NCBI GenBank assembly: GCA_004356825.1
Contig: SMXC01000338.1
Location: 1 to 35,258, forward strand
Origin: Caldithrix sp.
Lineage (GTDB): Bacteria > Zhuqueibacterota > Zhuqueibacteria > Oceanimicrobiales > Oceanimicrobiaceae
DNA length: 35,258 bases
Direction: 5' to 3'
The position numbers were made by a program, and so were the translations under genes. The notes under the pieces are model-generated. The model saw only the letters and a list, made by a program, of their open reading frames with translations. It was not told the DNA's origin and searched no databases. This document shows, in pieces, positions 3,914 through 35,243 of this stretch (position 1 is the first letter of the stretch; each line of letters begins with the position of its first letter).

Positions 3914-4040
3914 TGCAAAAGTAGCACTTATTTTAGATGGGGAGAAAAATTTATCATTGGCAAACTTAGTGGAGTCACCGATTTTTACAAAAGAATACCT
4001 AAGCCTACAACTTTAGTTGAGCAACCGAGGGGTGATTGAT

Positions 4041-5444
4041 ATGAGAGCATTTCGAAACTCCTGCCTGGAGTTAATATTTTTTTCTAGAGATAAACTAGTT
4101 TCGCTTTTATTATTGCTCGCCATCCCATTTTGCCTCCAAGGTCAGGAGTTGGATGGGTTGGTGGTTCACCCCGAGAATCGTCACCTGCTTTTTTATAAAA
4201 AACGTTTTCTTGTTACCTGGGCAAACAACAATCATGGCGCACCTCAACAAACCATGGCAAGCCATAAACTCAACCATTACGAGAAGGTACATAAATGGTA
4301 CGACGGCCAGGCGCCCATGCTTTCAGGTGGCCGTCTTCCAAATGATGGCAATATAAATTTTGACGAGTCTTATTTTTCACAACTCAGGTCCGAGCTCATC
4401 AGCGCTCAGAACAAAGGAATCGCCGTTACAATTGTTCTGTTCTCAGGAACCGCATTTGAGGGCGATCGTACAGCCGGTTCGCGATTTGGGCAAAATGCGT
4501 GGAATGCATGTTTAGGAGGCCCAATCGATATTGGAAGTTGTCCTTTTCAACAAAGTGGCGGAAAATCCAGTGGAGGACTTAAGCAGTTTCTGAGCTTAGA
4601 GAACTATGATTATTCTAACCGGCTCACCTCACAATTTTCAACGTATGATAAAAATTGGCCATTGGAGAGAAAGATTCAATATCGCCAGGAGGAAATCCTG
4701 AACAAGTTCATGACTGAGATTGGCGATTTGGATAACTGGATGTTTAATGTCATGTGGGAAATCAACGATCAGTGGCAAGGTGATTTCGACAAAGCCAGAA
4801 AATGGGCGAACTGGTTCGCAGGTTATATACATCAACATTTTGATCGTAATCGAATCGTTATGACGGGCGAAGTAGGACCCAGTTCACAACTTCAGTCACG
4901 GTACGGTGTGGATTTTTTTGCGGATATTATCGGCACTATTAATGGCTCTCAACATGAAGGTCTTGTTAGCTGGGGCCTCGGCGCCTATCCTAATCTGAGA
5001 GCAATCGGAAGTAATAATAACGGTAAACCCAAGGTAATCATTGGATACGATCCCTGGGATTGTAACGGCAATATTGCTGACAAGGAGTGTCTCAACGGTT
5101 CCGGATGTATCGATGCGAGAAAGGTGATTAATTTTATTCGCGAAGCTTTGCTCACTCAAAATGGCGTCCATCCTTCGACACCGTTTCACTTTACCAAATG
5201 CGGTGACGGCAAAACAGAGATTCTGGATTATATAAAAGTACTTCAGGATTTTCTTGAAACTGTCGATTCCTGGCATAACGAGCCTGGGGATGAGATCAAG
5301 GATTCGACCTTGCCGCGAAGTGATAATTTTAGCTTTATCGATTTGCCGGATGGCGATGGCCGCCATGGCTGGCCACGGAATAGTTTTGAAAGGGACCCGC
5401 GAGCGCCTGCAGTTCCGGTAAATGTTAAAGTCGATGCGAACTAA
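4041..5444 (+). CDS. Secreted glycoside-hydrolase-like TIM-barrel protein with conserved C-terminal tail
   Basis: I start this 467-residue protein at ATG 4041 because GAGGGG at 4027-4032 lies 8 bases upstream; a TTG at 4017 is in frame but has no such site. A hydrophobic stretch near residues 19-32 (LVSLLLLLAIPFCL) looks like a signal peptide, with mature protein from about QELDG. The body resembles cellulase-like (clan A) barrels: FNVMWEIND (about residues 235-243) places a Glu (240) where these enzymes carry the acid/base, and GEVGP offers a second Glu near 277. I could not identify the exact family or substrate, and the catalytic assignment is an inference. The last 16 residues (DPRAPAVPVNVKVDAN) match the tails of the proteins ending at 6561 and 29967. 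A role in trimming or releasing the glycan made by this locus is plausible. It is followed after 19 bases by a second hydrolase-like gene. Confidence 0.65.
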   Translation: MRAFRNSCLELIFFSRDKLVSLLLLLAIPFCLQGQELDGLVVHPENRHLLFYKKRFLVTWANNNHGAPQQTMASHKLNHYEKVHKWYDGQAPMLSGGRLPNDGNINFDESYFSQLRSELISAQNKGIAVTIVLFSGTAFEGDRTAGSRFGQNAWNACLGGPIDIGSCPFQQSGGKSSGGLKQFLSLENYDYSNRLTSQFSTYDKNWPLERKIQYRQEEILNKFMTEIGDLDNWMFNVMWEINDQWQGDFDKARKWANWFAGYIHQHFDRNRIVMTGEVGPSSQLQSRYGVDFFADIIGTINGSQHEGLVSWGLGAYPNLRAIGSNNNGKPKVIIGYDPWDCNGNIADKECLNGSGCIDARKVINFIREALLTQNGVHPSTPFHFTKCGDGKTEILDYIKVLQDFLETVDSWHNEPGDEIKDSTLPRSDNFSFIDLPDGDGRHGWPRNSFERDPRAPAVPVNVKVDAN

Positions 5445-5463
5445 ATTCTTACCCGGAGAAAGA

Positions 5464-6561
5464 ATGAGATATTTCCAGAAGCAAAAATTTATGGAATTAG
5501 ATTCTATACTTAGATATTTCATTCTCCTACTCTTTCTGAAAATGGGTTTCTTAGCTGGGGGTTGTGATTTCAATATGAATCAACCCTTGATGGCTCAGTC
5601 GAATGTAGTCCTGGGAACGTCAGGCGAGCGGTTCACTATTAACGGCACGCCAACTTTTCTCCTCGGCGTAAGTTACTTTGACGGCAGAAACTACCGAGAA
5701 TCGGACCTGGTTACTCTTTCCGCCAAGGGTTTTAATTTGATCCGGGTCTGGTTAGATTGGCGGGAAGACTCTTATCTTGATGAAAACGGAAATTGGCGTT
5801 CCGGGGCCGAGCAAGATTTACTCCGTCTGGTTGACTTTGCCCACAACCAGGGGCTGATAGTAGATATTGCCATTTTGGATAAGGACGCTGCCTTTGGAAA
5901 TAATAAGTCAGATCGAGATCTGGCCGTTCGAAATGTTGCCAGTCTTCTTAAGAATAAGAGAAATGTTTTATTTGATCTCGCTAATGAGCATGATACCTCC
6001 GGTTTTCTATTGCAGTTTACGCACAGTGACGCTGCTGACTTGAACGCCCTGGTAAAACGAATCGACCCCGATAGACTGGTCACCATCTCAAGTACCGGCT
6101 GCCATCTAATTTGTACTGATGTTAATAACGTTGAGACCGGCAACATCAAAGCTGAAATCGATGAAGTGAATGTTGACGTGCTTACGCCACATTTTCTCCG
6201 CGGAAGCGATTGGGCCGCGAAAACGGGGCCACGCCTTGCAGCTATCAAAAATTATCTGCAGTCTACTAATAGAAATATTCCCATTTATCTTCAGGAGGAA
6301 AATCGGCGTAACGACAATACGGGACCAACTAAAGATGAGTTTTTCGAAGCTGCTGAGAACGCGGTAAATTTAGGCGCCGCTGCCTGGATTTTTCATACAG
6401 CCGCTGGTTTCACACTAAAAGGCAGCACTTTTTTTGATAACCTCGATCCTACTGAGCGTCTTGTCGTTGATGAGCTTGGTAGCCGAATACTTGGCTCAAG
6501 TGCAGATAGAATGCCGCCGACCTCACCGCGAAACGTCAAAATTGTTATCGGCAGAAATTGA
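5464..6561 (+). CDS. Exported cellulase-like (GH5-type) glycoside hydrolase, possible lipoprotein
   Basis: The preferred start is ATG 5464, with GGAG at 5455-5458 five bases upstream, giving 365 residues; an in-frame ATG at 5422 would overlap the previous gene. The N-terminus has a long hydrophobic stretch ending in FLAGGC (Cys34), a weak lipobox, so it is either a lipoprotein or cut after the MAQS segment near residue 46. The rest follows the GH5-like plan: FTINGTPTFLLGVSYFD, then NLIRVWLDWR, then FDLANEHD with Glu175 as likely acid/base, and IYLQEENRR with Glu278 or Glu279 as likely nucleophile near the end of the barrel. Substrate is unknown; a beta-linked glycan is likely. The protein ends in DRMPPTSPRNVKIVIGRN, the tail motif shared with two other exported proteins here. 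The next gene starts 13 bases after the stop. Confidence 0.75.
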   Translation: MRYFQKQKFMELDSILRYFILLLFLKMGFLAGGCDFNMNQPLMAQSNVVLGTSGERFTINGTPTFLLGVSYFDGRNYRESDLVTLSAKGFNLIRVWLDWREDSYLDENGNWRSGAEQDLLRLVDFAHNQGLIVDIAILDKDAAFGNNKSDRDLAVRNVASLLKNKRNVLFDLANEHDTSGFLLQFTHSDAADLNALVKRIDPDRLVTISSTGCHLICTDVNNVETGNIKAEIDEVNVDVLTPHFLRGSDWAAKTGPRLAAIKNYLQSTNRNIPIYLQEENRRNDNTGPTKDEFFEAAENAVNLGAAAWIFHTAAGFTLKGSTFFDNLDPTERLVVDELGSRILGSSADRMPPTSPRNVKIVIGRN

Positions 6562-6574
6562 AAAACACGTTCTA

Positions 6575-7552
6575 ATGAAGCGCGGCTCTTACATCTTCTT
6601 TTTACTCTCACTTTTTGTTCTTCTTAGTTTGTTTGGGGTAAGCCAAACGAGCCGAGTGAAGCAACTCTTGCACTACCACTGGGGGCTTGCCAGTGCAGCG
6701 GAAATACACAAACTGCGCTTCGCAGGTACTCCAAAGGGTAAAGAGGTTTTTTTTGAGGGGGATGGTGTAAGAATAGCAGGTACGATTTTTAGCGTTAGCA
6801 AAAAAAATGCGCCTGGTATTATTTTTTTACACGGTTCCTCTGTTCAAGGCCGGAAATTGGCCTTTTGTTTGCTTTTGAGCAAAGAGCTTGCCGAGCGAGG
6901 ATTCCATGTCTTAAGTATGGACATGCGTGGTTTCGGCGAATCCGAAGATCCGCACCTGATCGACGAAGTGGATTCATGGCAAAGCAAAGGAGATGTGAGC
7001 AAAGCCATCGATTTTCTGATTAAGAATGCAACGGTAGATACGAGCGCTCTTTTTATTGTTGGCCATTCTGCAGGAGCAAACCAGGCAATTATTGCCGGTA
7101 TTTACGATCATCGACTCAAAAAGATAGTGGCCATCGGTCCATCACGGCGAGTTAAAGAACGAATTCTGTCTGATCAGGCGAAAAATCGCGAATATTTTAT
7201 CGAACGATTTGCGCGGGACAGAAAATTAACCGCACTGCCATCATGGGAAACGTATCGTCAGATTTCAATCAACGCGATGCTCGACACATATATTCCTTAC
7301 TTTCAGACTGAGGATCATAAACCACTTTTTCTCATCGATGGCAGTCTTGAAGGGCCGGAAGATTTAGAGTTTTTGAGAAATATTTATCAAGAATTGATTC
7401 CGCCTAAAAAATATTTCACTATCGAAGGCAGTAATCATTACAGCAATACTAAGGCTTTAGGCCCCCTCATTTTTTATCATAAGCAGGTTTTTGACGAGCT
7501 CGTTGATAAAATTGCCTCGTGGCTAAAAGAATCATTACCAGATATCGGGTAG
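6575..7552 (+). CDS. Membrane-anchored alpha/beta hydrolase
   Basis: From ATG 6575 the protein has 325 residues. An in-frame ATG at 6434 exists but lies inside the upstream gene and adds a stretch with no family resemblance. Residues 7-21 form one hydrophobic segment, so the enzyme is probably anchored in the membrane or exported. The hydrolase fold is clear: an oxyanion-type FLHGSS (84-89), the nucleophile elbow GHSAG with Ser165, a candidate acid Asp255 in FLIDGS, and His288 in GSNHYSN. The short MDMRGFGES segment is typical of esterases and peptidases of this fold. It may remove acyl groups from the glycan or act as a general esterase; the substrate is not deducible. It closes the three-gene block of exported hydrolases that begins at 4041. 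Confidence 0.8.
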   Translation: MKRGSYIFFLLSLFVLLSLFGVSQTSRVKQLLHYHWGLASAAEIHKLRFAGTPKGKEVFFEGDGVRIAGTIFSVSKKNAPGIIFLHGSSVQGRKLAFCLLLSKELAERGFHVLSMDMRGFGESEDPHLIDEVDSWQSKGDVSKAIDFLIKNATVDTSALFIVGHSAGANQAIIAGIYDHRLKKIVAIGPSRRVKERILSDQAKNREYFIERFARDRKLTALPSWETYRQISINAMLDTYIPYFQTEDHKPLFLIDGSLEGPEDLEFLRNIYQELIPPKKYFTIEGSNHYSNTKALGPLIFYHKQVFDELVDKIASWLKESLPDIG

Positions 7553-7873
7553 AGGCTCCAATATCCATGGTTTTACTCCCCTCAAATAAAACGGAGCGAG
7601 AAAACTTCTTATCTTAAGCACTTCACTTTGCAAATACTTAACACTCGTTCTGTGCCAAAAGAGGACAACGTTTCAAACTGGCACACGATGGGCACTCAAT
7701 TTAACTAAAAAACAAAAGCTTATGCCATCTTAATTTTATTAAAATGTAGGCAGTTAATCCGCAGGTGAATTGGTAGCTGTTCATGGCATTGATCTTGCTA
7801 AAGTAAATGAGTTTTGAAACCGATGTAAAATTAAGCTCGGTAACTATTTATTAATAGGTTGATTATTATAAAG
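7553..7873. other. Intergenic region, no gene seen
   Basis: This gap of about 320 bases carries no convincing coding sequence. The one structure I can point to is a 7-base inverted repeat, TGTGCCA at 7651-7657 and TGGCACA at 7679-7685, with a 21-base loop and no T-run, so it is not a typical terminator. I found no promoter with both boxes well placed, although the following gene probably starts a new transcript. Confidence 0.5.
7651..7685. repeat. 7-base inverted repeat in the intergenic gap
   Basis: TGTGCCA (7651-7657) pairs perfectly with TGGCACA (7679-7685) around a 21-base spacer. There is no U-tract downstream. It could be an operator-like site or chance. Confidence 0.25.
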
Positions 7874-8431
7874 ATGCCGACATCCATTGGCCATACACTA
7901 GCAGGGGTTTTTCTTAAAGAAACAAGGATATTTACCCCTGCTGAGACGGCTTTTAAATCGCTTCTAGTCTCGGTCATTTTAGCAAATCTGGCAGATATCG
8001 ATTTCTTGCCAGGACTCATCCTGGGGAATCCGAATCGTTTTCATCACGGGATTACTCACAGTCTCGGGGCAACTTTAGTGGTGGGTCTGGTATTCGGGTT
8101 TTATTTTTATGCGAAGAAAAATCAATTCTGGGCGCCTTTTGCTTTTTCGGGATTATTGTATTTATCTCATGTGGCTTTAGATTTTTTGACGGTAGACACA
8201 TCGCCGCCGCAAGGGGTGCCGATTTTCTGGCCTCTAAGCGGTGAATACTACCTGTCTCCAATTTCTGTGTTTTCAAGTGTGCACAAGGATTCTTTCAGCG
8301 CGACTTTTTTTCAGAGCTTGTTTGTCTCCGAAAATATCTGGACTGTTTTCCGCGAGATATTTATTTTGGGGCCGTTTGTTTTGCTGGTTTACCTGGTTAA
8401 GTTAATAAAAAATAAAATTCAGCCCGCTTAA
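7874..8431 (+). CDS. YdjM/DUF457-type membrane-bound metal-dependent hydrolase
   Basis: This 185-residue integral membrane protein starts at ATG 7874; the TTG at 7859 is in frame, but the family normally begins with the M-P-x-x-x-G-H pattern seen at 7874. Likely metal ligands are visible in the expected order: His7 in IGHTLAG, Asp41 and Asp43 in ADIDFLPG, the RFHHGITHS cluster (His57, His58, His62), and His99 with Asp103 in SHVALDFLT. The segment GVPIFWPLSGEYYLSPIS is also typical of the family. About four membrane helices are present. Family members are annotated as inner-membrane metal-dependent hydrolases, but their physiological substrate is largely unknown. It heads the gene run that continues with the DPM1-like glycosyltransferase nine bases downstream. 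Confidence 0.8.
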   Translation: MPTSIGHTLAGVFLKETRIFTPAETAFKSLLVSVILANLADIDFLPGLILGNPNRFHHGITHSLGATLVVGLVFGFYFYAKKNQFWAPFAFSGLLYLSHVALDFLTVDTSPPQGVPIFWPLSGEYYLSPISVFSSVHKDSFSATFFQSLFVSENIWTVFREIFILGPFVLLVYLVKLIKNKIQPA

Positions 8432-26998: not shown

Positions 26999-28243
26999 TT
27001 GAAAATCGTCTACTTTAGTTATTTGTATGATATTGACGGCATCTCCCTTGGTGCAAAAATAAAAGCCGTAGAATTGCTGTCCGAGCTTGAAAATCTTGGG
27101 CACGAGGTCAAAATATACTGGATGAACCGCCAGCCCGCGGAAACCGCCTCGCTTGGAACGCAAACACGGCAGGCATTCAAAGCTCGATTTGCCAAAGTCC
27201 TTCACGAGCCAAACCAAATTTTGATGAGTCTCAAGTATCTTATCAAGGAATGGAAAATCGTAAAAAAAGAAGATCCGGATATCATTATCTCTCGGTTGGA
27301 TGTTTATAAATTTTCTTCTGTAATAATTTCCAAGCTCAAGAAAATACCGCTGATCATCGAATTAGATAACCCAGTGGTTTATGAATTCCGAACATTTCAA
27401 CCCAATTATAGATCTAGTCTCACCTTATTAAGGTTTCTCGAAAAGTTGAACCTGCGTCATTCAAAAATCTCTTTCACTGTTAGCAACGAAATTAGAAACC
27501 ACTACCTTGAGCAAGGGATTGCGCCTGAGAAAATTCAAGTGATTTCAAATGGCGTTAATCTGAATAAATTTCACCCTTCTATCGATGCGACTGAGGTCAT
27601 TCAAAAATATAAATTAGAGGATACGATCGTCATCGGCTTTGTGGGTACTTTTCACTATTGGCACGGCGTCGATAACCTGGTCACTCTTTTCAAAAAGATT
27701 ACTTCTTTGAATAGTAAGGTACGATTTTTGATGGTAGGTTCAGGCGGCCCCATGAAAGAACGGTTACAAGAGGTTATCGAGTTGGAGAAATTACAAAAGC
27801 GTGCTATTTTAACCGGATTCGTAAGCCACGACAAAATTCCTCAGCATATCGCAGCCATGGACATCGTTTTAGCTCCTTACCCTGAGCTCGACTTTTTTTA
27901 TTATTCACCGCTGAAGGTCTTTGAGTACATGGCTTGCGGTAAGCCGGTGATTACGACCAGAATCGGACAAAACCAGGAGCTTATCGCAAACGGTGAAAGC
28001 GGATATTTATGCGATCCCGGAAATCTGGATGAGATGATTGAAAAAATATTGAACCTTATTTCCAATCCTGAACTCAGGGCTCGAATGGGTCAGGAGGCAA
28101 GAAGGTCGATCGAAGAAAATCATTCCTGGAGAGTGAAGGCCCAAAATCTCTGCACCCTCTTTTCTGACACGCCAAAAATAACTGAACAAAATGGGGCGAA
28201 AGAATTCGAAGTCGTCGATCCAAATTACCAGGAGTTTTCATAA
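26999..28243 (+). CDS. GT4 glycosyltransferase (TTG start)
   Basis: A TTG at 26999 gives a natural N-terminus, MKIVYFSYLYDIDGIS; the nearest in-frame upstream codons give no ATG or GTG, so TTG is the likely start, with only a weak ribosome site. The 414-residue enzyme has ISNGVNLNKFHPS at the hinge, IGFVGTFHYWHGVDNLV in the donor domain, and APYPELDFFYYSPLKVFEYMACGKP as the E-x7-E region. It resembles fucosyl- and mannosyltransferase-like GT4 proteins, but the sugar cannot be named. The last base of its stop codon is the first base of the next start (TAATG). Confidence 0.85.
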   Translation: MKIVYFSYLYDIDGISLGAKIKAVELLSELENLGHEVKIYWMNRQPAETASLGTQTRQAFKARFAKVLHEPNQILMSLKYLIKEWKIVKKEDPDIIISRLDVYKFSSVIISKLKKIPLIIELDNPVVYEFRTFQPNYRSSLTLLRFLEKLNLRHSKISFTVSNEIRNHYLEQGIAPEKIQVISNGVNLNKFHPSIDATEVIQKYKLEDTIVIGFVGTFHYWHGVDNLVTLFKKITSLNSKVRFLMVGSGGPMKERLQEVIELEKLQKRAILTGFVSHDKIPQHIAAMDIVLAPYPELDFFYYSPLKVFEYMACGKPVITTRIGQNQELIANGESGYLCDPGNLDEMIEKILNLISNPELRARMGQEARRSIEENHSWRVKAQNLCTLFSDTPKITEQNGAKEFEVVDPNYQEFS

Positions 28244-29967
28244 TGAGTATAAAGATGTTTAACGCCAAGTGCGTAATAAATTACCTCTTGATTTTTTTCT
28301 CTCTAATTGTAGTTAATACGGCTGTTTCACAAAACTTTGATCCCCCCTACCCGCGAGTGGGCCAGGTTTATTTCTATAATCCAGGCCAAGGTGCTGAAAT
28401 CTGGAAAGATCACGATCTGATCATCATCCGCCATAAATATAATGACGAGGCCAGGAAGATTAAAGCTAAGAATCCAGACGTTATTTTGCTGGCTACAAAC
28501 GACTACATCGTTAGTAAAAAAGACATGTGGCCAGACGCCTGGTATGTCAAAGACAGCAACGGCAAAATGACTTCCTATCATGAAGACTACGGACTCATGA
28601 ATATTACGAATCAATGTCCAAGGGTCAATCATACTTACGGCTCGCAAAGATTCAATGAATTTTTGCCGCGCCATTTAATGGAAAAAACCGACTATAATTA
28701 TTTTGACGGCACCTTTTTTGACTATTGGGCAAAACAGCTTTGGGGGAGTAAACCAGATAGGGCAGACATCACAAATGACAACAAGCCGGATGGCGCTCAG
28801 TATGTTAATCAAGAGTGGGAAAAAGGCAATCAGATGCTCATCTCAAATTTAAGGGCTTTATTGAACAAACCGGTTGCGGCTCATGAAGCCGGGCAGACCT
28901 ACCTAAATGGTAATGGCTTCGAGTTCTGGCCAAATTTGAGTAGAAAAAATACTTTAGAAGATTTGTTTGAACTCGAAGATCAAGCTGTCAAACCGGTCAT
29001 AAATTTTGCCGAGGGCTATGGTTACGAAAAAGGCCCCGACTTTGGCTCAAAGTGGCGAGCGGATTTTATGACTTCCCAAATTGGCGGCGCGTATTTTGGT
29101 CATGATGAAGGCACTACCGCGCACAGGTTTACTTTTCTGCATGACGAGTTTGAAGCTGACTTAGGGCATCCTTTACCCGGCTCTGCAGGTGATCCCCTGG
29201 AAATAATGTCCGGTGTTTATGCGCGTTATTTTGACAAAGGAGCCATAATCGCAAATGTATCCGGCAACTCAAAAACTGTTCAGTCGAGCCATTTGGACGG
29301 GCGCGGCTACTGGCGCTTTCGAGGCGCGCAAGACCCGGGCTTTAATAATGGCCAACAATTCACCAGCGTGAGTTTTTCCGGTAATGATGGAATCATGCTT
29401 TTTACCGAACCGACCACACTTGTCACACCCATCATCATCGATAATGTGAAGGTCAACATGACATCACTTGATCAGTCACCGGCGCAATACACAGGTAACT
29501 GGACTCAAGTGAGGTGGTATGGGGAGGCCGACAAAAGTAAGACAGGTTACGCCTTAGGGCTTTCCTGGGGCAGTGAGCAATACACTTATGTTTTTTCTAC
29601 CGGTGCCGGGGAAGCGAGATATCAGCCCAAAATAAATGTGTCCGGCAAATATGAAATTTTTGAGTGGCACCCGGACGTTTCTCGGGATGATAACGGCTCG
29701 CCGTGCAGCAATGTTAAGTTAAGTGTGGTGTCGGCTGACGGCACCACTGAAAAAACAATCGACCAAAGTGTCAATTACGGAAAGTGGAATTCTCTTGGGG
29801 TTTATAACTTTAACACCGGTACCTCCGGTCATGTGGTCTTAAAAGCGCCCGGTGGCTGCACCGCCTCATCCGATGCAATTCAGTTTGTTTCTTATGATCC
29901 AAATTCTCAGGTCGTTGACACGCATCCGCCAGATCGGCCAAGAGGAATAAAAGTAGAATCTAATTAA
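28243..29967 (+). CDS. Secreted putative glycoside hydrolase with C-terminal golvesin-type domain
   Basis: The 574-residue protein has a signal peptide (hydrophobic 12-28, likely cut near AVSQ). Residues 35-400 resemble the hypothetical glycosyl hydrolase family 15 type (GHL15): a strand with HDLIIIRHKYNDE, NPDVILLATNDY, and the acidic motif YNYFDGTFFDYW (151-162). Residues about 450-551 match the golvesin C-terminal/Xly-type beta-sandwich seen next to carbohydrate-active domains (GKYEIFEWHPDV, KWNSLGVYNF, SSDAIQFVSY). The last 16 residues, DTHPPDRPRGIKVESN, are the tail shared with the two secreted proteins at 4041-6561. AGGAG at 28229-28233 precedes the start. It may cleave or bind the glycan made by this locus; catalysis is unproven. 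Confidence 0.72.
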   Translation: MSIKMFNAKCVINYLLIFFSLIVVNTAVSQNFDPPYPRVGQVYFYNPGQGAEIWKDHDLIIIRHKYNDEARKIKAKNPDVILLATNDYIVSKKDMWPDAWYVKDSNGKMTSYHEDYGLMNITNQCPRVNHTYGSQRFNEFLPRHLMEKTDYNYFDGTFFDYWAKQLWGSKPDRADITNDNKPDGAQYVNQEWEKGNQMLISNLRALLNKPVAAHEAGQTYLNGNGFEFWPNLSRKNTLEDLFELEDQAVKPVINFAEGYGYEKGPDFGSKWRADFMTSQIGGAYFGHDEGTTAHRFTFLHDEFEADLGHPLPGSAGDPLEIMSGVYARYFDKGAIIANVSGNSKTVQSSHLDGRGYWRFRGAQDPGFNNGQQFTSVSFSGNDGIMLFTEPTTLVTPIIIDNVKVNMTSLDQSPAQYTGNWTQVRWYGEADKSKTGYALGLSWGSEQYTYVFSTGAGEARYQPKINVSGKYEIFEWHPDVSRDDNGSPCSNVKLSVVSADGTTEKTIDQSVNYGKWNSLGVYNFNTGTSGHVVLKAPGGCTASSDAIQFVSYDPNSQVVDTHPPDRPRGIKVESN

Positions 29968-30007
29968 AACAATAGGTCAGAATTCTTCAATGACAGGGAA
30001 GACAAAT

Positions 30008-30436
30008 ATGAATCAGGATGCTTACGAAAAATTATTTCAAATAGAAAAAAAGCAAATTAAACGTAGAAGTCTATTGACGGGCATTGCCTTAGGTATGTTA
30101 ATATTTCTGCTACTTTTAAGTGGTCTAGCTTTAACTGCTTGGACGAACCAGGATAAAATTGCCGAAGCGGCGCTAGAGTATCTGGCCGATAATTACCTGC
30201 AAGATTTATTTGCAACATTTCCCGATGGTTATATGTCACATAACCAGCATAAAGTCTTACCTATTCTGGATAAGTTTACCAATGCTGCTGCCGCAAAAAA
30301 AGTAACCGGGGCTGAATTTAAATATATTGGGAAAAATATAATTGCTGCACTCAAAGATAAAGAGTTGACTTATCATGAAATCACAGATATTTTAACGAAC
30401 ATGCAAACCGCGTCAAAAAGCGGATATAATTTTTAA
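30008..30436 (+). CDS. Small single-span membrane protein, unknown function
   Basis: I start at ATG 30008 because GGGAAG lies just upstream; ATG 29990 would add six residues. The 142-residue protein has a short charged N-terminus (EKKQIKRRS), one membrane helix (about 22-44), and about 98 residues outside that appear mostly helical, with no cysteine and no recognisable motif. The positive residues before the helix predict the C-terminal part is outside the cytoplasm. I do not recognise it. It is 40 bases downstream of the secreted hydrolase gene and may be co-transcribed with it. Confidence 0.6.
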   Translation: MNQDAYEKLFQIEKKQIKRRSLLTGIALGMLIFLLLLSGLALTAWTNQDKIAEAALEYLADNYLQDLFATFPDGYMSHNQHKVLPILDKFTNAAAAKKVTGAEFKYIGKNIIAALKDKELTYHEITDILTNMQTASKSGYNF

Positions 30437-30455
30437 ATCAATTAATGGACGTTAG

Positions 30456-30773
30456 ATGAATAATAAAAGTATTTTTACTTCGGTTGTGATATTCTTTTTT
30501 GGCACTGTTTTCGGGTCGTTTTTCGCGACGATTGTGATACGTGAGGCAGTACCCCTGCGAGATCATTACGTAATGATAGTCATCAGTTTTGTCAGTTCGG
30601 CAATTTTGATGTCGGGGTTACTCTTTTGGTATTTCAAAGTGGTTAATTCCTGCAAAAAAGTTTTTGGTGAGAAGGGTGGTGGGATGATTAACATTATCAT
30701 GAGTTTCCTTCTGATTAGCATCGGGCTGTTTTATATTTTGGTAGTGAGTATTTTTTATATGGCCATTGCCTGA
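30456..30773 (+). CDS. Small three-helix membrane protein, unknown function
   Basis: The 105-residue product is very hydrophobic, with likely membrane helices near 7-28, 38-60 and 77-103, and a short charged loop (CKKVFGEKGGG). There is no family signature I recognise. The start is ATG 30456, 19 bases after the previous stop, with only a weak ribosome site. Gene order suggests it pairs with the preceding small membrane protein at the right-hand end of the glycan locus, before the terminator at about 30880. Confidence 0.55.
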   Translation: MNNKSIFTSVVIFFFGTVFGSFFATIVIREAVPLRDHYVMIVISFVSSAILMSGLLFWYFKVVNSCKKVFGEKGGGMINIIMSFLLISIGLFYILVVSIFYMAIA

Positions 30774-30879
30774 ATTTTTATGTGACTTAAAATGTTCCGT
30801 TCCTCCGCAAGCTAAGTTGACTATTCCAACATTGATTTATCTAAGTATTCTCCTTTCCAAACCAAGATTTGTACCCCAT

Positions 30880-30911
30880 TCATCGGATGCCCCCTAACAT
30901 CCGATGATTTT
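30880..30911 (+). terminator. Intrinsic terminator at the end of the glycan locus
   Basis: A perfect stem of ten base pairs is formed by TCATCGGATG (30880-30889) and CATCCGATGA (30898-30907) around an eight-base loop, followed by TTTT (30908-30911). The stem is only half G+C and the T-run is short, so it may be a moderate terminator. Its position, 107 bases after the last gene of the locus and just before the carA promoter, fits termination. Confidence 0.6.
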
Positions 30912-30934
30912 CAATAATTTGATTGATATTTTTA

Positions 30935-30963
30935 TGGAAACTTAAAAATTTAAATGCTATATT
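30935..30963 (+). promoter_or_regulatory. Extended -10 promoter for carA-carB
   Basis: TGGAAA (30935-30940) is a four-of-six -35 box. After 17 bases comes TATATT (30958-30963), five of six with the -10 consensus, and TG sits one base upstream of it (30955-30956), the extended -10 arrangement. Transcription would start near 30970, giving a leader of about 24 bases to the carA ATG. No PyrR-type attenuator is seen in that short leader. Confidence 0.5.
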
Positions 30964-30993
30964 CCACGTAATTATTCCCCAAGATTACAGAGT

Positions 30994-32052
30994 ATGACCA
31001 CAAAATTAATTCTCGAGGACGGATCGGTATTCACCGGAAAGACCTTTGGTGGTTCAAAGTCCACTTCTGGGGAGGTTGTCTTTAATACCGGAATGGTAGG
31101 CTACCCGGAAAGTTTTACCGACCCCTCTTACAAAGGCCAAATTCTCATTTTAACCTACCCGTTAATTGGTAACTATGGTGTTCCTTCTCTTGCGTCCAAA
31201 GATGGACCACTGGGTATGAATTTTGAGTCTGACCGTATTCAAATTTCCGGACTGGTTATTTCAGAATATTCTGTAAATTTCAGCCACTGGGAAGGCGAGT
31301 TAAGTCTTGATGATTGGCTGAAAAAAGCCGATATTCCGGCGGTTTCCGGAATCGATACCCGACTCCTGACTCAGAAACTCAGAGAACAAGGTTCAATGTT
31401 GGGTAAGTTGGTCGTTCAGCAGAACGATGTTGAGATGGTCGATCCAAATGCCAGGAATCTCGTTGCCCAGGTTTCTGCCAGCCAACCGGTGTGCTACGGT
31501 GAGGGGAAGAAGCGGCTTCTACTCATCGATTGTGGTTGTAAATTTAATATCATCCGCTCACTAGTCCAAAGGGGGTTTTCGGTTAAAACTGTACCCTGGG
31601 ACTGGGATATTTCCAAGGAACAGTTCGATGGTCTGGTGATCTCGAATGGCCCAGGCTCTCCCAAAATGGTTTCTACCACAATTGAGAATGTTCGCAAACT
31701 CTTAAAACAGGATGTTCCCATATTTGGGATTTGTCTTGGCAATCAAATACTGGCTCTTGCAGCTGGCGCTGACACCTATAAGATGAAATACGGCCATCGC
31801 AGTCAAAACCAACCGTGCCTGCTGGTTGGCAGCAAACGTTGTTTTATCACTTCACAAAATCACGGCTACGCGGTGGATGAAAAGACTTTGCCTGAAAACT
31901 GGGAGCCCTGGTTTTTCAACGGCAACGACGGCACGAATGAGGGCATTCGCCATCGTACCAAGCCCTTTATCAGCGTGCAGTTTCACCCGGAGGCAAACCC
32001 GGGTCCAGTCGATACTGGCTTTCTTTTCGATGAATTCATTTCGACTCTATGA
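30994..32052 (+). CDS. carA: Carbamoyl-phosphate synthase small (glutaminase) subunit
   Basis: This 352-residue protein hydrolyses glutamine and passes ammonia to CarB for carbamoyl phosphate synthesis, the first step of pyrimidine and arginine synthesis. The N-domain reads LILEDGSVFTGKTFGG and VVFNTGMVGYPESFTDPSY. The C-terminal class I amidotransferase has its catalytic Cys247 in FGICLGNQ, and His331 with Glu333 in FHPEA; NGPGSP and TSQNHGYAV complete the fold. It is slightly shorter than E. coli CarA (about 382). Phrases such as QNQPCLLVGSKRCFITSQNH and NDGTNEG are closer to the small-subunit region of animal CAD as I remember it than to E. coli CarA. It overlaps carB by four bases (ATGA), which indicates coupled translation. 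Confidence 0.96.
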   Translation: MTTKLILEDGSVFTGKTFGGSKSTSGEVVFNTGMVGYPESFTDPSYKGQILILTYPLIGNYGVPSLASKDGPLGMNFESDRIQISGLVISEYSVNFSHWEGELSLDDWLKKADIPAVSGIDTRLLTQKLREQGSMLGKLVVQQNDVEMVDPNARNLVAQVSASQPVCYGEGKKRLLLIDCGCKFNIIRSLVQRGFSVKTVPWDWDISKEQFDGLVISNGPGSPKMVSTTIENVRKLLKQDVPIFGICLGNQILALAAGADTYKMKYGHRSQNQPCLLVGSKRCFITSQNHGYAVDEKTLPENWEPWFFNGNDGTNEGIRHRTKPFISVQFHPEANPGPVDTGFLFDEFISTL

Positions 32053-35000
32053 GTATGATTACTGACATTAAAAAAATCATCATTCTTGGCAGTTCGGCGC
32101 TGAAAATCGGCGAAGCCGGTGAGTTTGATTATTCCGGCAGCCAGGCCATTAAAGCTCTGAAAGAAGAAGGCATTCAAACTGTTTTGGTAAACCCAAACAT
32201 TGCCACGATTCAGACCTCCGAACATCTCGCGGACAACATTTACCTCCTTCCGGTCAATGCAGATTTTGTAGAAAAAATTATTGAAAAAGAAAGACCTGGC
32301 GGCGTCCTCCTTTCTTTCGGCGGGCAAACCGCACTCAATTGTGGCCTTGAATTAGCTAAAAATGGAGTATTTGAAAAGTATAAAGTCAAAGTACTGGGGA
32401 CGCCTCTTGAAGCCATTAAAAACACCGAAGACCGGGGACTATTTATCGATCGGCTTAACGAGATCAACATAAAAACTCCCCGTAGCGTCGCTGTTAATTC
32501 CAAAGAAGAGGCTTTGGAAAGCGCCAAAGAAATCGGCTATCCAGTGATGATTCGGATTGCATTTGCTCTGGGCGGCCTGGGTTCCGGTGTTTGCACTTCG
32601 GAGGATGAAGTGCGGGAACTAGCGGACAAAGCGTTTTCTTATACCAATCAAATTCTGGTTGAAGAGTATCTTGAAGGGTGGAAAGAAATCGAATACGAAG
32701 TCGTGCGCGATCTCCACGACAATTGCATCACGATTTGCAACATGGAGAATTTCGATCCTCTGGGAATTCATACTGGCGAGAGCATCGTGGTGGCGCCAAG
32801 TCAGACGTTAAATAACCATGAATACCATTGGCTGCGCGAGATTTCAATTAAGGTCATTCGTCATATCGGCATAATTGGTGAGTGTAATATTCAGTATGCT
32901 TTGGATCCTAAATCGGGAGACTACCGAGTTATCGAAGTCAATGCAAGGTTGTCACGGAGTTCGGCCCTGGCTTCCAAAGCAACCGGATATCCTCTGGCAT
33001 TTATTGCGGCTAAATTAGCACTTGGGCATAGTTTGGTCGAATTGAAAAATGCCATCACGCAGACCACAATGGCCTGCTTCGAGCCGGCACTTGACTATAT
33101 CGTCGTTAAAATTCCCCGGTGGGATCTTAAAAAATTTCGTCATGTCTCTCTCCAAATTGGCTCCTCAATGAAATCGGTTGGCGAAGTGATGGCAATCGGC
33201 CGTTCGTTTGAAGAGGCTTTACAGAAAGCTTTGCGCATGTTGGAGATTGGCGTGCATGGGCTGACCGGCAACGCTCATTTGAAATTTGATGATTTCAAAG
33301 AGGCGTTAAAAAACCCCACCGAAGAGCGTGTTTTTGCAGTGGTTCAGGCGCTGCAATCCGGTCATTCCATTGAAGATGTACATAAATTAACCCACATCGA
33401 TAAGTGGTTTCTTTACAAAATTCAGCATATTATTGACATTGAAAATTCCATTAGGGTTTATGAAAACGGTGTTTGTCCAAAAGGAACTTTGCTTGAAGCG
33501 AAGCAAACAGGGTTCTCCGATCAACAAATTGCTTCGATCTTAAATTGTGAAGAAGATGAAGTTCGCGGAATGCGTAAAAATTACGGGCTTGAGCCTTGCG
33601 TAAAACAAATCGATACGCTGGCCGCTGAATATCCTGCGAAAACAAATTACTTATATCTTACTTACAATGGCACTTCGAATGATGTTGAATTCAGGAATCA
33701 AAATACAGTTATCGTCCTGGGTTCCGGCGTTTACAGGATAGGCAGTTCTGTGGAGTTTGACTGGTGCTGTGTGAATGCGGTTTCGACACTTAGAAAAATG
33801 AAGTACCACACAATTGTGATTAATTGCAACCCCGAGACCGTTAGCACCGATTTTGATGAATGTGATCGCCTCTATTTCGATGAACTGAGCTTTGAAATCA
33901 TTCTTGATATTTATGAAAAAGAACAGCCGCTGGGAATCGTGATTGCAATGGGCGGTCAGGTTCCCAACAATTTGGCGGTCAAGTTTCAGCGGCACGGCTT
34001 GAAGATTTTAGGAACATCGGCTGAGAATATTGATCGAGCGGAAGATCGACATAAATTCTCATCTCTCCTCGATGTTCTCGAGATTGATCAACCGGAGTGG
34101 AAAGAACTGCTTACGCTCAAGGAAGCAAAGAAATTTGCCAACGAAGTCCAATACCCGATTCTTGTGCGTCCTTCTTATGTGTTAAGTGGTGCCGCAATGG
34201 GCGTCGCTTCTACAGATGAGGAATTGACAACGTTTTTAGAGAAAGCAGTGGAAATATCGATCGACAGCCCGGTGGTGATCAGCAAGTTTCTGGAAAATGC
34301 CAAGGAGATAGAGTTCGATGCTGTTGCCATGAATGGCGAAGTCATCGTAAGTGCGATTTCGGAGCACGTTGAAAACGCCGGCGTCCATTCCGGAGACGCC
34401 ACGCTGGTTTTGCCGCCACAGAGAACTTATCTTGAAACGATTCGCAAAATACGAAATATTTCAAGTGAAATAGCGCAGGCTTTGCAAATCACCGGACCGT
34501 TCAATATTCAATTCATTGCCAAAGCCAATTATGTTAAAGTTATCGAGTGTAATTTACGCGCCTCCAGAAGTTTTCCTTTTGTCTCCAAAGTGTGCAAAAT
34601 TAATTTTATCGAAATTGCCACAAAGGCATTGATGGGAAAAACCGCTGAGGTGCCCCCTAATTCTTTTATGGACCTCAATTACGTTGGCGTCAAAGCGCCG
34701 CAATTTTCTTTTACACGCCTGCTTGGCGCCGATCCGACTTTGGGCGTCGAAATGGCCTCGACCGGTGAAGTCGGATGTCTAGGCGATGATTTCGAGGAGG
34801 CGTTTCTGAAGGCGCTCATTTCGGTTGGCTTTAAATTTCCTTTGAAGAATATCTTGATCTCAACCGGCCCCCTGGAAAACAAAGCTGAATTTATTTCGAG
34901 CGCTAAACTTCTAAAAGAAGCGGGGGTGCAAATTTTCGCAACACGAGGCACATCCCGGTTTATGAAACAATACGATATTGAGACTAAAGTTCTGAATTGG

Positions 35001-35243
35001 CCACTGGAGAAGAAAAGCCCAAACGTTCTGGAATTTCTGAGCAACGGTGCGGTCGATCTGGTAATTAATATCCCCAAGAATTTTCAGGAAGAGGAATTGA
35101 CTAATGACTACATAATTCGCAGAAAAGCGGTCGATTTGGGTATTCCATTAATTACCAATCTTCAACTCGCAAAGAGATTTGTCGAAGCAATCTCAAGAAA
35201 ACAGTTTTCCGAGTTGCGAATTACCAGTTGGAATGAATACTAA
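32049..35243 (+). CDS. carB: Carbamoyl-phosphate synthase large subunit
   Basis: The 1064-residue cytosolic synthetase makes carbamoyl phosphate from bicarbonate, ammonia and two ATP. Two homologous ATP-grasp halves are present: the first begins IIILGSSALKIGEAGEFDYSG and the second (about residue 554 on) VIVLGSGVYRIGSSVEFDW. FGGQTALNCG, ALGGLGSG and IEVNARLSRSSALASKATG mark the first ATP-grasp, and RPSYVLSGAAMGV, GVHSGDATLVLPPQ and RASRSFPFVSKV the second. The last 130 or so residues form the MGS-like allosteric domain (ILISTGPLENKAEF, FATRGTS). Length is normal and the gene is complete, its stop at 35241-35243. The wording follows the Bacteroidota and eukaryotic CAD type more than the E. coli type. 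It starts in a four-base overlap with carA; ATG 32055 is a second possible start. Confidence 0.97.
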   Translation: MSMITDIKKIIILGSSALKIGEAGEFDYSGSQAIKALKEEGIQTVLVNPNIATIQTSEHLADNIYLLPVNADFVEKIIEKERPGGVLLSFGGQTALNCGLELAKNGVFEKYKVKVLGTPLEAIKNTEDRGLFIDRLNEINIKTPRSVAVNSKEEALESAKEIGYPVMIRIAFALGGLGSGVCTSEDEVRELADKAFSYTNQILVEEYLEGWKEIEYEVVRDLHDNCITICNMENFDPLGIHTGESIVVAPSQTLNNHEYHWLREISIKVIRHIGIIGECNIQYALDPKSGDYRVIEVNARLSRSSALASKATGYPLAFIAAKLALGHSLVELKNAITQTTMACFEPALDYIVVKIPRWDLKKFRHVSLQIGSSMKSVGEVMAIGRSFEEALQKALRMLEIGVHGLTGNAHLKFDDFKEALKNPTEERVFAVVQALQSGHSIEDVHKLTHIDKWFLYKIQHIIDIENSIRVYENGVCPKGTLLEAKQTGFSDQQIASILNCEEDEVRGMRKNYGLEPCVKQIDTLAAEYPAKTNYLYLTYNGTSNDVEFRNQNTVIVLGSGVYRIGSSVEFDWCCVNAVSTLRKMKYHTIVINCNPETVSTDFDECDRLYFDELSFEIILDIYEKEQPLGIVIAMGGQVPNNLAVKFQRHGLKILGTSAENIDRAEDRHKFSSLLDVLEIDQPEWKELLTLKEAKKFANEVQYPILVRPSYVLSGAAMGVASTDEELTTFLEKAVEISIDSPVVISKFLENAKEIEFDAVAMNGEVIVSAISEHVENAGVHSGDATLVLPPQRTYLETIRKIRNISSEIAQALQITGPFNIQFIAKANYVKVIECNLRASRSFPFVSKVCKINFIEIATKALMGKTAEVPPNSFMDLNYVGVKAPQFSFTRLLGADPTLGVEMASTGEVGCLGDDFEEAFLKALISVGFKFPLKNILISTGPLENKAEFISSAKLLKEAGVQIFATRGTSRFMKQYDIETKVLNWPLEKKSPNVLEFLSNGAVDLVINIPKNFQEEELTNDYIIRRKAVDLGIPLITNLQLAKRFVEAISRKQFSELRITSWNEY

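Follow-up and report, generated by a model that had tools for sequence, protein, structure and literature searches.

Results

Three exported enzymes of one gene cluster share their last residues

The window, by which we mean the whole analysed stretch of 35,258 nucleotides, is contig C119 of a 4.36 Mb assembly. Three enzymes of its polysaccharide cluster share a C-terminal tail of 16–18 residues. The first, protein A (4017–5444, forward strand; its true start may be the ATG at 4041, MRAFRNSC...), is exported and matched no Pfam family in our Pfam scan. The neighbouring protein B (5422–6561, forward strand; likely true start ATG 5464) is a GH5-like exported hydrolase, whose body matches Pfam Cellulase with an E-value of 2.8e-10 and GH5 mannanases in Foldseek. 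The third carrier (28243–29967, forward strand) resembles a glycoside hydrolase joined to a golvesin/CBM35-like domain: Pfam reports Golvesin_C (E 2.7e-14), and Foldseek reports weak matches to the hydrolase domains of PelA, Ega3 and GH191 as well as a CBM35.

Protein A ends in SFERDPRAPAVPVNVKVDAN (stop at 5442–5444) and protein B in SADRMPPTSPRNVKIVIGRN (stop at 6559–6561), and both close with the pattern D-x-x-[PA]-P-x-x-P-x-N-V-K-[VI]. The tails themselves, all on the forward strand, are DPRAPAVPVNVKVDAN in A (5394–5441, profile E 0.034), DRMPPTSPRNVKIVIGRN in B (6505–6558, E 5.3e-4) and DTHPPDRPRGIKVESN in the third carrier (29917–29964, E 6.5e-4), which the first-pass annotation had overlooked. 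What that annotation claimed for A and B is borne out: the tail is shared, it sits on bodies that are otherwise unlike, and the likeness is one of protein rather than of a recent DNA copy, as the codons of the two tails differ. Simple copying of one gene can be ruled out as the source of the tail, because both bodies and codons differ. The annotation's 13–19 bases between stop and next start are also correct, with 19 bases from the stop of A to the next plausible ATG (5464) and 13 from the stop of B to the ATG at 6575; no fibronectin type III (FN3) domain follows either tail.

The pattern D..?[PA]P..P.[NG][VLI][KR] occurs within the last 20 residues of 3 of the 30 window ORFs of at least 100 aa, and in none of 20,000 shuffles of the C-termini of these ORFs. 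In the whole genome the tail's DNA pattern has six matches. Five of them have a stop 16–18 codons after the D; the sixth belongs to an ordinary FN3 domain, whose protein closes with a T9SS-type domain. A profile built from 42 tails ranks the same way: its top five matches, all terminal, comprise the three tails of the window and two from contig C85 (E 8e-5 to 0.03); a genuine FN3 domain (E 0.12) comes next, then one weak match. The two tails on C85 adjoin Wzx-like, glycosyltransferase and sugar-nucleotide genes (named from sequence by eye), and hence all five tails of this genome lie in polysaccharide loci. Five tails are few for a dedicated system.

Homologues keep the tail

A second genome of the same family (G006) has a matching locus. 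Its homologue of A (L008 2961–4358, 32% identity) ends in DPPPAAPGGVKVSTN and its homologue of B (L008 6869–7969, 48% identity) in DNTAPAPPENLRTILD, each directly before the stop. The tail is also kept in the A homologues L005 538–2148 and L106 797–2674 (24%). In G038 and G061, which belong to other families, the A homologues have extra domains after the body and the tail is still last (DLSPPAPPQGIYLRTLFE and DTTPPDSPTGLKIEKIY, each followed by the stop). The same family of proteins therefore carries the tail directly after the body in the window and in G006, and after inserted domains in G038 and G061, which supports the view that the tail acts as a movable terminal module. A Chloroflexi homologue of B ends in a different domain and lacks the tail. 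That relatives might lack the tail had been named as grounds for discarding the motif; homologues within the class retain it.

The surroundings of A and B are partly shared between the two genomes. The alpha/beta-hydrolase and YdjM-like genes that adjoin A and B (window 6575–7552 and 7859–8431) are kept in the G006 locus (L008 4392–5387 and 8195–8728) and are untailed. An ORF of 728 aa at 469–2655 of the window fuses an NAD-dependent epimerase with a GFO/IDH/MocA oxidoreductase, and a similar ORF is present in the G006 locus (L008 103–1530). Finally, carA-carB lies next to polysaccharide genes and to an exported protein with the tail both in the window (28243–35243) and in G006 (contig C216, L068).

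The tail is widespread in the class

We sampled 63 class genomes, together with some from elsewhere in the phylum, using a strict DNA pattern and requiring an open frame of at least 100 aa upstream. The class contains at least 82 distinct C-terminal tails, with 14–21 residues from the D to the stop, and the rest of the phylum three. Matches inside longer frames (at least 31 in the class and nine elsewhere in the phylum) are mostly, and in the class almost always, the starts of complete FN3 domains. Distances to the stop in class and phylum are two-peaked, with at least 85 tails, at least 40 internal matches and only two intermediates, at 25 and 27. From other phyla we sampled 80 genomes, of whose matches 50 were read, some chosen by eye, with two further matches besides; they yielded no tails and 27 internal matches. 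Among the matches listed, the excess of tails in class and phylum over other phyla gives a Fisher p of 6e-12, which is indicative because the class counts are lower bounds, some outside matches were hand-picked and related genomes are not independent.

The consensus of the tails is D-[TRS]-T-P-P-[AS]-P-P-x-[NG]-V-[RK]-[VI]-x(1-8)-stop, usually with x(2-5). Position 13 was not constrained by the search, and 67 of the 85 tails among the matches listed have V or I there. The bodies in front of the tail are diverse: GH5, golvesin with GHL15, phytase, purple acid phosphatase with Big_1, alginate lyase with CarboxypepD_reg, polysaccharide lyase 8 with PKD, beta-helix and FN3.

Three genomes (G003, G004 and G005) have three or four carriers in one cluster. 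This cluster of tailed phytase, alginate-lyase-like protein and purple acid phosphatase is conserved between G003:C11 (L065), G004:C133 (L063) and G005:C176 (L064), and appears to be an extracellular unit for scavenging phosphate. Between its carriers sits a repeat protein that is untailed and probably exported. A link of the tail to glycan loci thus holds for the window's genome, where it covers five of five tails, and fails as a general limit, since the phytase, purple acid phosphatase and alginate-lyase-like cluster is tailed too.

Carriers are exported, and the tail is conserved

An N-terminal hydrophobic segment is present in 62 of 69 full-length carriers, compared with 135 of the 268 remaining ORFs in these loci; in several of the carriers without one, the start of the ORF was called far upstream. 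That the carriers are exported, as had been proposed, is thereby upheld. The opposite expectation, that the motif occurs at random C-termini at the same rate, is contradicted by this export signal and by the lack of tails among the 27 matches in other phyla. The N-terminus of B contains a possible lipobox cysteine, both in the window (5422–6561, LAGGC) and in L008 (6869–7969, FFSC). B may therefore be a lipoprotein; most carriers look like signal peptidase I substrates instead.

In 24 related pairs, dN/dS is 0.24 for the tail core, 0.20 for the linker and 0.17 for the body; the value for the core is biased downward because both partners had to match the pattern, and apparent conservation is inflated, and dN/dS lowered, because retrieval by pattern fixes several positions of the tail. 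At positions that the pattern leaves free, 14 pairs differ by 28 synonymous and 24 nonsynonymous codon changes.

The tail matches the first strand of an FN3 domain

The tail consists of an FN3 linker and strand A only. A full FN3 domain has seven strands and about 85–90 residues; here the remaining strands are missing and the chain stops after strand A. The resemblance to a first FN3 strand with no domain behind it had been pointed out before, and it holds, as the tail aligns with the opening positions of the fn3 model.

Some tailed proteins are themselves small FN3 proteins. Three of them, exported and 114–120 aa long, lie at L074 7417–7779 (reverse strand), L075 7073–7429 (forward) and L218 4782–5126 (forward). 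In these small secreted proteins the FN3 domain starts at strand B (fn3 profile positions 12–16). When the tail is moved in front of the body, the match starts at position 2 and gains 8.6, 6.0 and 5.3 bits, compared with about 3.6 bits when a reversed tail is placed before one of the bodies. By their sequence, the tailed small proteins appear as if they were circularly permuted.

One could argue that the tail is a neutral relic, the linker and strand A left over from a lost FN3 domain and spread without function by domain shuffling. The gain in bits would be expected under this explanation, and the same words do begin real FN3 domains in these genomes. Yet a relic should not be retained on many unrelated bodies at a narrow distance from the stop, and FN3-bearing genomes sampled from other phyla have no C-terminal tails. 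Low dN/dS and conservation outside the retrieval pattern speak against it as well. We consider a functionless relic unlikely.

The likeness to strand A suggests strand addition, and the permuted fn3 match would fit a tag that donates a strand. A small FN3 protein without strand A could have been a universal acceptor. This candidate is not supported: the tailed form was seen only in G001, G003 and G006, homologues elsewhere have T9SS-type or further domains, and the genes that flank it in G001 and G003 are unrelated.

The tail takes the position of T9SS sorting domains

Golvesin proteins were retrieved by Pfam, independently of the tail. By manual count, about 16 of those in class and phylum are tailed, eight have a T9SS-type domain and few have neither, while the tail is present in none of five legible golvesin proteins from other phyla. 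Similarly, among small proteins consisting of a signal peptide and FN3, those of G001, G003 and G006 are tailed and those of G000, G037 and G042 have a T9SS-type domain. Both endings co-occur in one genome, and in L063 even in neighbouring genes. We read the tail and the T9SS-type domain as two probable alternatives for one C-terminal slot, where "replacement" on golvesin proteins means domain homology rather than proven orthology, because tailed and T9SS-ended forms may be different subfamilies; the swap on the small FN3 proteins is to be read in the same way.

T9SS sorting domains (Por_Secre_tail PF18962/TIGR04183 for type A; CHU_C) share with the tail a C-terminal place after unrelated exported bodies and the equivalent position on homologous golvesin and small FN3 proteins. 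The T9SS C-terminal domain (CTD) is described in PMC11285876 as an Ig-like beta-sandwich domain. Cargo of types A and B ends in such a CTD of roughly 70–100 residues; our carriers end in a tail of 14–21 residues without the sequence features of a CTD. A truncated T9SS domain as the origin of the tail was rejected, since the linkers ahead of CTDs have no tail.

Nevertheless, the tail might stand in for the Ig-like CTD and be recognised by the T9SS translocon itself. Its position on homologous bodies and its presence beside CTD-type endings in one genome, and in adjacent genes of L063, are what such a signal would predict. However, so short a peptide lacks the YPNPFNP...G-Y...K features, the linkers before CTDs are free of it, and Pfam scans of tailed proteins gave no match to Por_Secre_tail or CHU_C. 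We regard a T9SS signal as decidedly unlikely.

The tail is predicted to be detached from the body

AlphaFold2 models the bodies of B and the golvesin protein with confidence and their tails as unstructured, with a pLDDT of about 30–38 in the tails; values fall below 50 at residues 360–379 of B and 556–574 of the third carrier. Low pLDDT may merely mirror thin alignments. A structural cap, with the tail binding and stabilising its own body, would draw on the facts that the tail is a possible beta strand and that many carriers close with beta-sandwich domains, but one and the same tail is found on TIM barrel, phytase, beta-helix and sandwich bodies, it is modelled as detached in two proteins, and homologous bodies elsewhere (B in Chloroflexi, golvesin proteins of other phyla) are untailed, so that we think a cap very improbable. 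A frameshift or assembly error that cuts the ORFs ahead of a true FN3 domain, as the opening words of FN3 domains elsewhere could suggest, has next to no probability and is already contradicted, because the next start in the window is only 13–19 bases away and homologues from separate assemblies and many genera end alike.

Discussion

We favour the reading that exported proteins of this class carry the tail as a compact C-terminal tag for sorting or docking, and that this extends to the phylum for golvesin-type proteins at least. We give it a probability of roughly 0.58. Unrelated secreted proteins throughout the class share the ending, which is why we read it as an address label, and its best reading is a tag that would derive from FN3 strand A. 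A sorting, anchoring or docking signal had been suggested from the window alone. It stands as the best explanation for a movable terminal module on exported carriers, with a hypothetical receptor and a putative effect.

In the broad sense of a C-terminal tag, the tail qualifies as a terminal module that unrelated exported proteins share and that stays last despite inserted domains. PEP-CTERM, MYXO-CTERM, GlyGly-CTERM and LPXTG tags require a motif, a transmembrane helix and a basic cluster, and PEP-CTERM has been linked to exopolysaccharide (PMC11980579). Like these tags, with their exosortase, myxosortase, rhombosortase and sortase, the tail is short and recurs within one lineage on exported proteins that are unrelated to each other. 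Unlike them, it has no transmembrane helix and no basic cluster: neither is present in any of the 85 tails, which are proline-rich and then end in x(1-8) mostly polar residues. No NCBIfam tag model matched any of ten carriers, and the model nearest to the tailed phytase (NF045638, "myxosortase-dependent phytase-like phosphatase") matches the body only and below cut-off. Exosortase (PF09721) is absent from G000 and from 56 of the 63 class genomes, and pairing of exosortase with the tail is ruled out by this lack of co-occurrence. In the literature we found such a tag nowhere described, and the string DTTPP had no matches. The tail would resemble known C-terminal tags in its working, yet it falls outside their definitions.

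How could such a tag work? After Sec export, the flexible proline-rich stretch would present a short strand, made of FN3 linker and strand A. A dedicated acceptor would bind this strand, and capture would either retain the enzyme, on the cell surface or within the exopolysaccharide, or carry it across the outer membrane. The mechanism we favour, at low confidence, has the tail add its strand to an FN3- or Ig-like acceptor without a strand A of its own. Donor-strand complementation in fimbriae would be alike in action if a strand-lacking acceptor exists, and small FN3 proteins do start at strand B. The donor strands of fimbriae are extensions of subunits and not tags of enzymes. The tail, by contrast, sits on enzymes, and the acceptor here is hypothetical. 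More doubtful is the specific picture of a lineage-specific display system, in which a 16-residue FN3 strand-A peptide would fix hydrolases and phosphatases to the surface or exopolysaccharide by adding its strand to an incomplete FN3-type acceptor.

C-terminal tags show where unstudied bacteria send their exported enzymes. Those of Gram-negative bacteria that we compared depend on either a membrane helix or an Ig-like domain. If our reading of the tail as a sorting or docking tag is true, surface enzymes could be predicted by a new and simple rule across a class known here only from assemblies. The FN3-derived peptide of 16 residues, free of any helix, could then serve as a minimal display tag and point the way to a new receptor.
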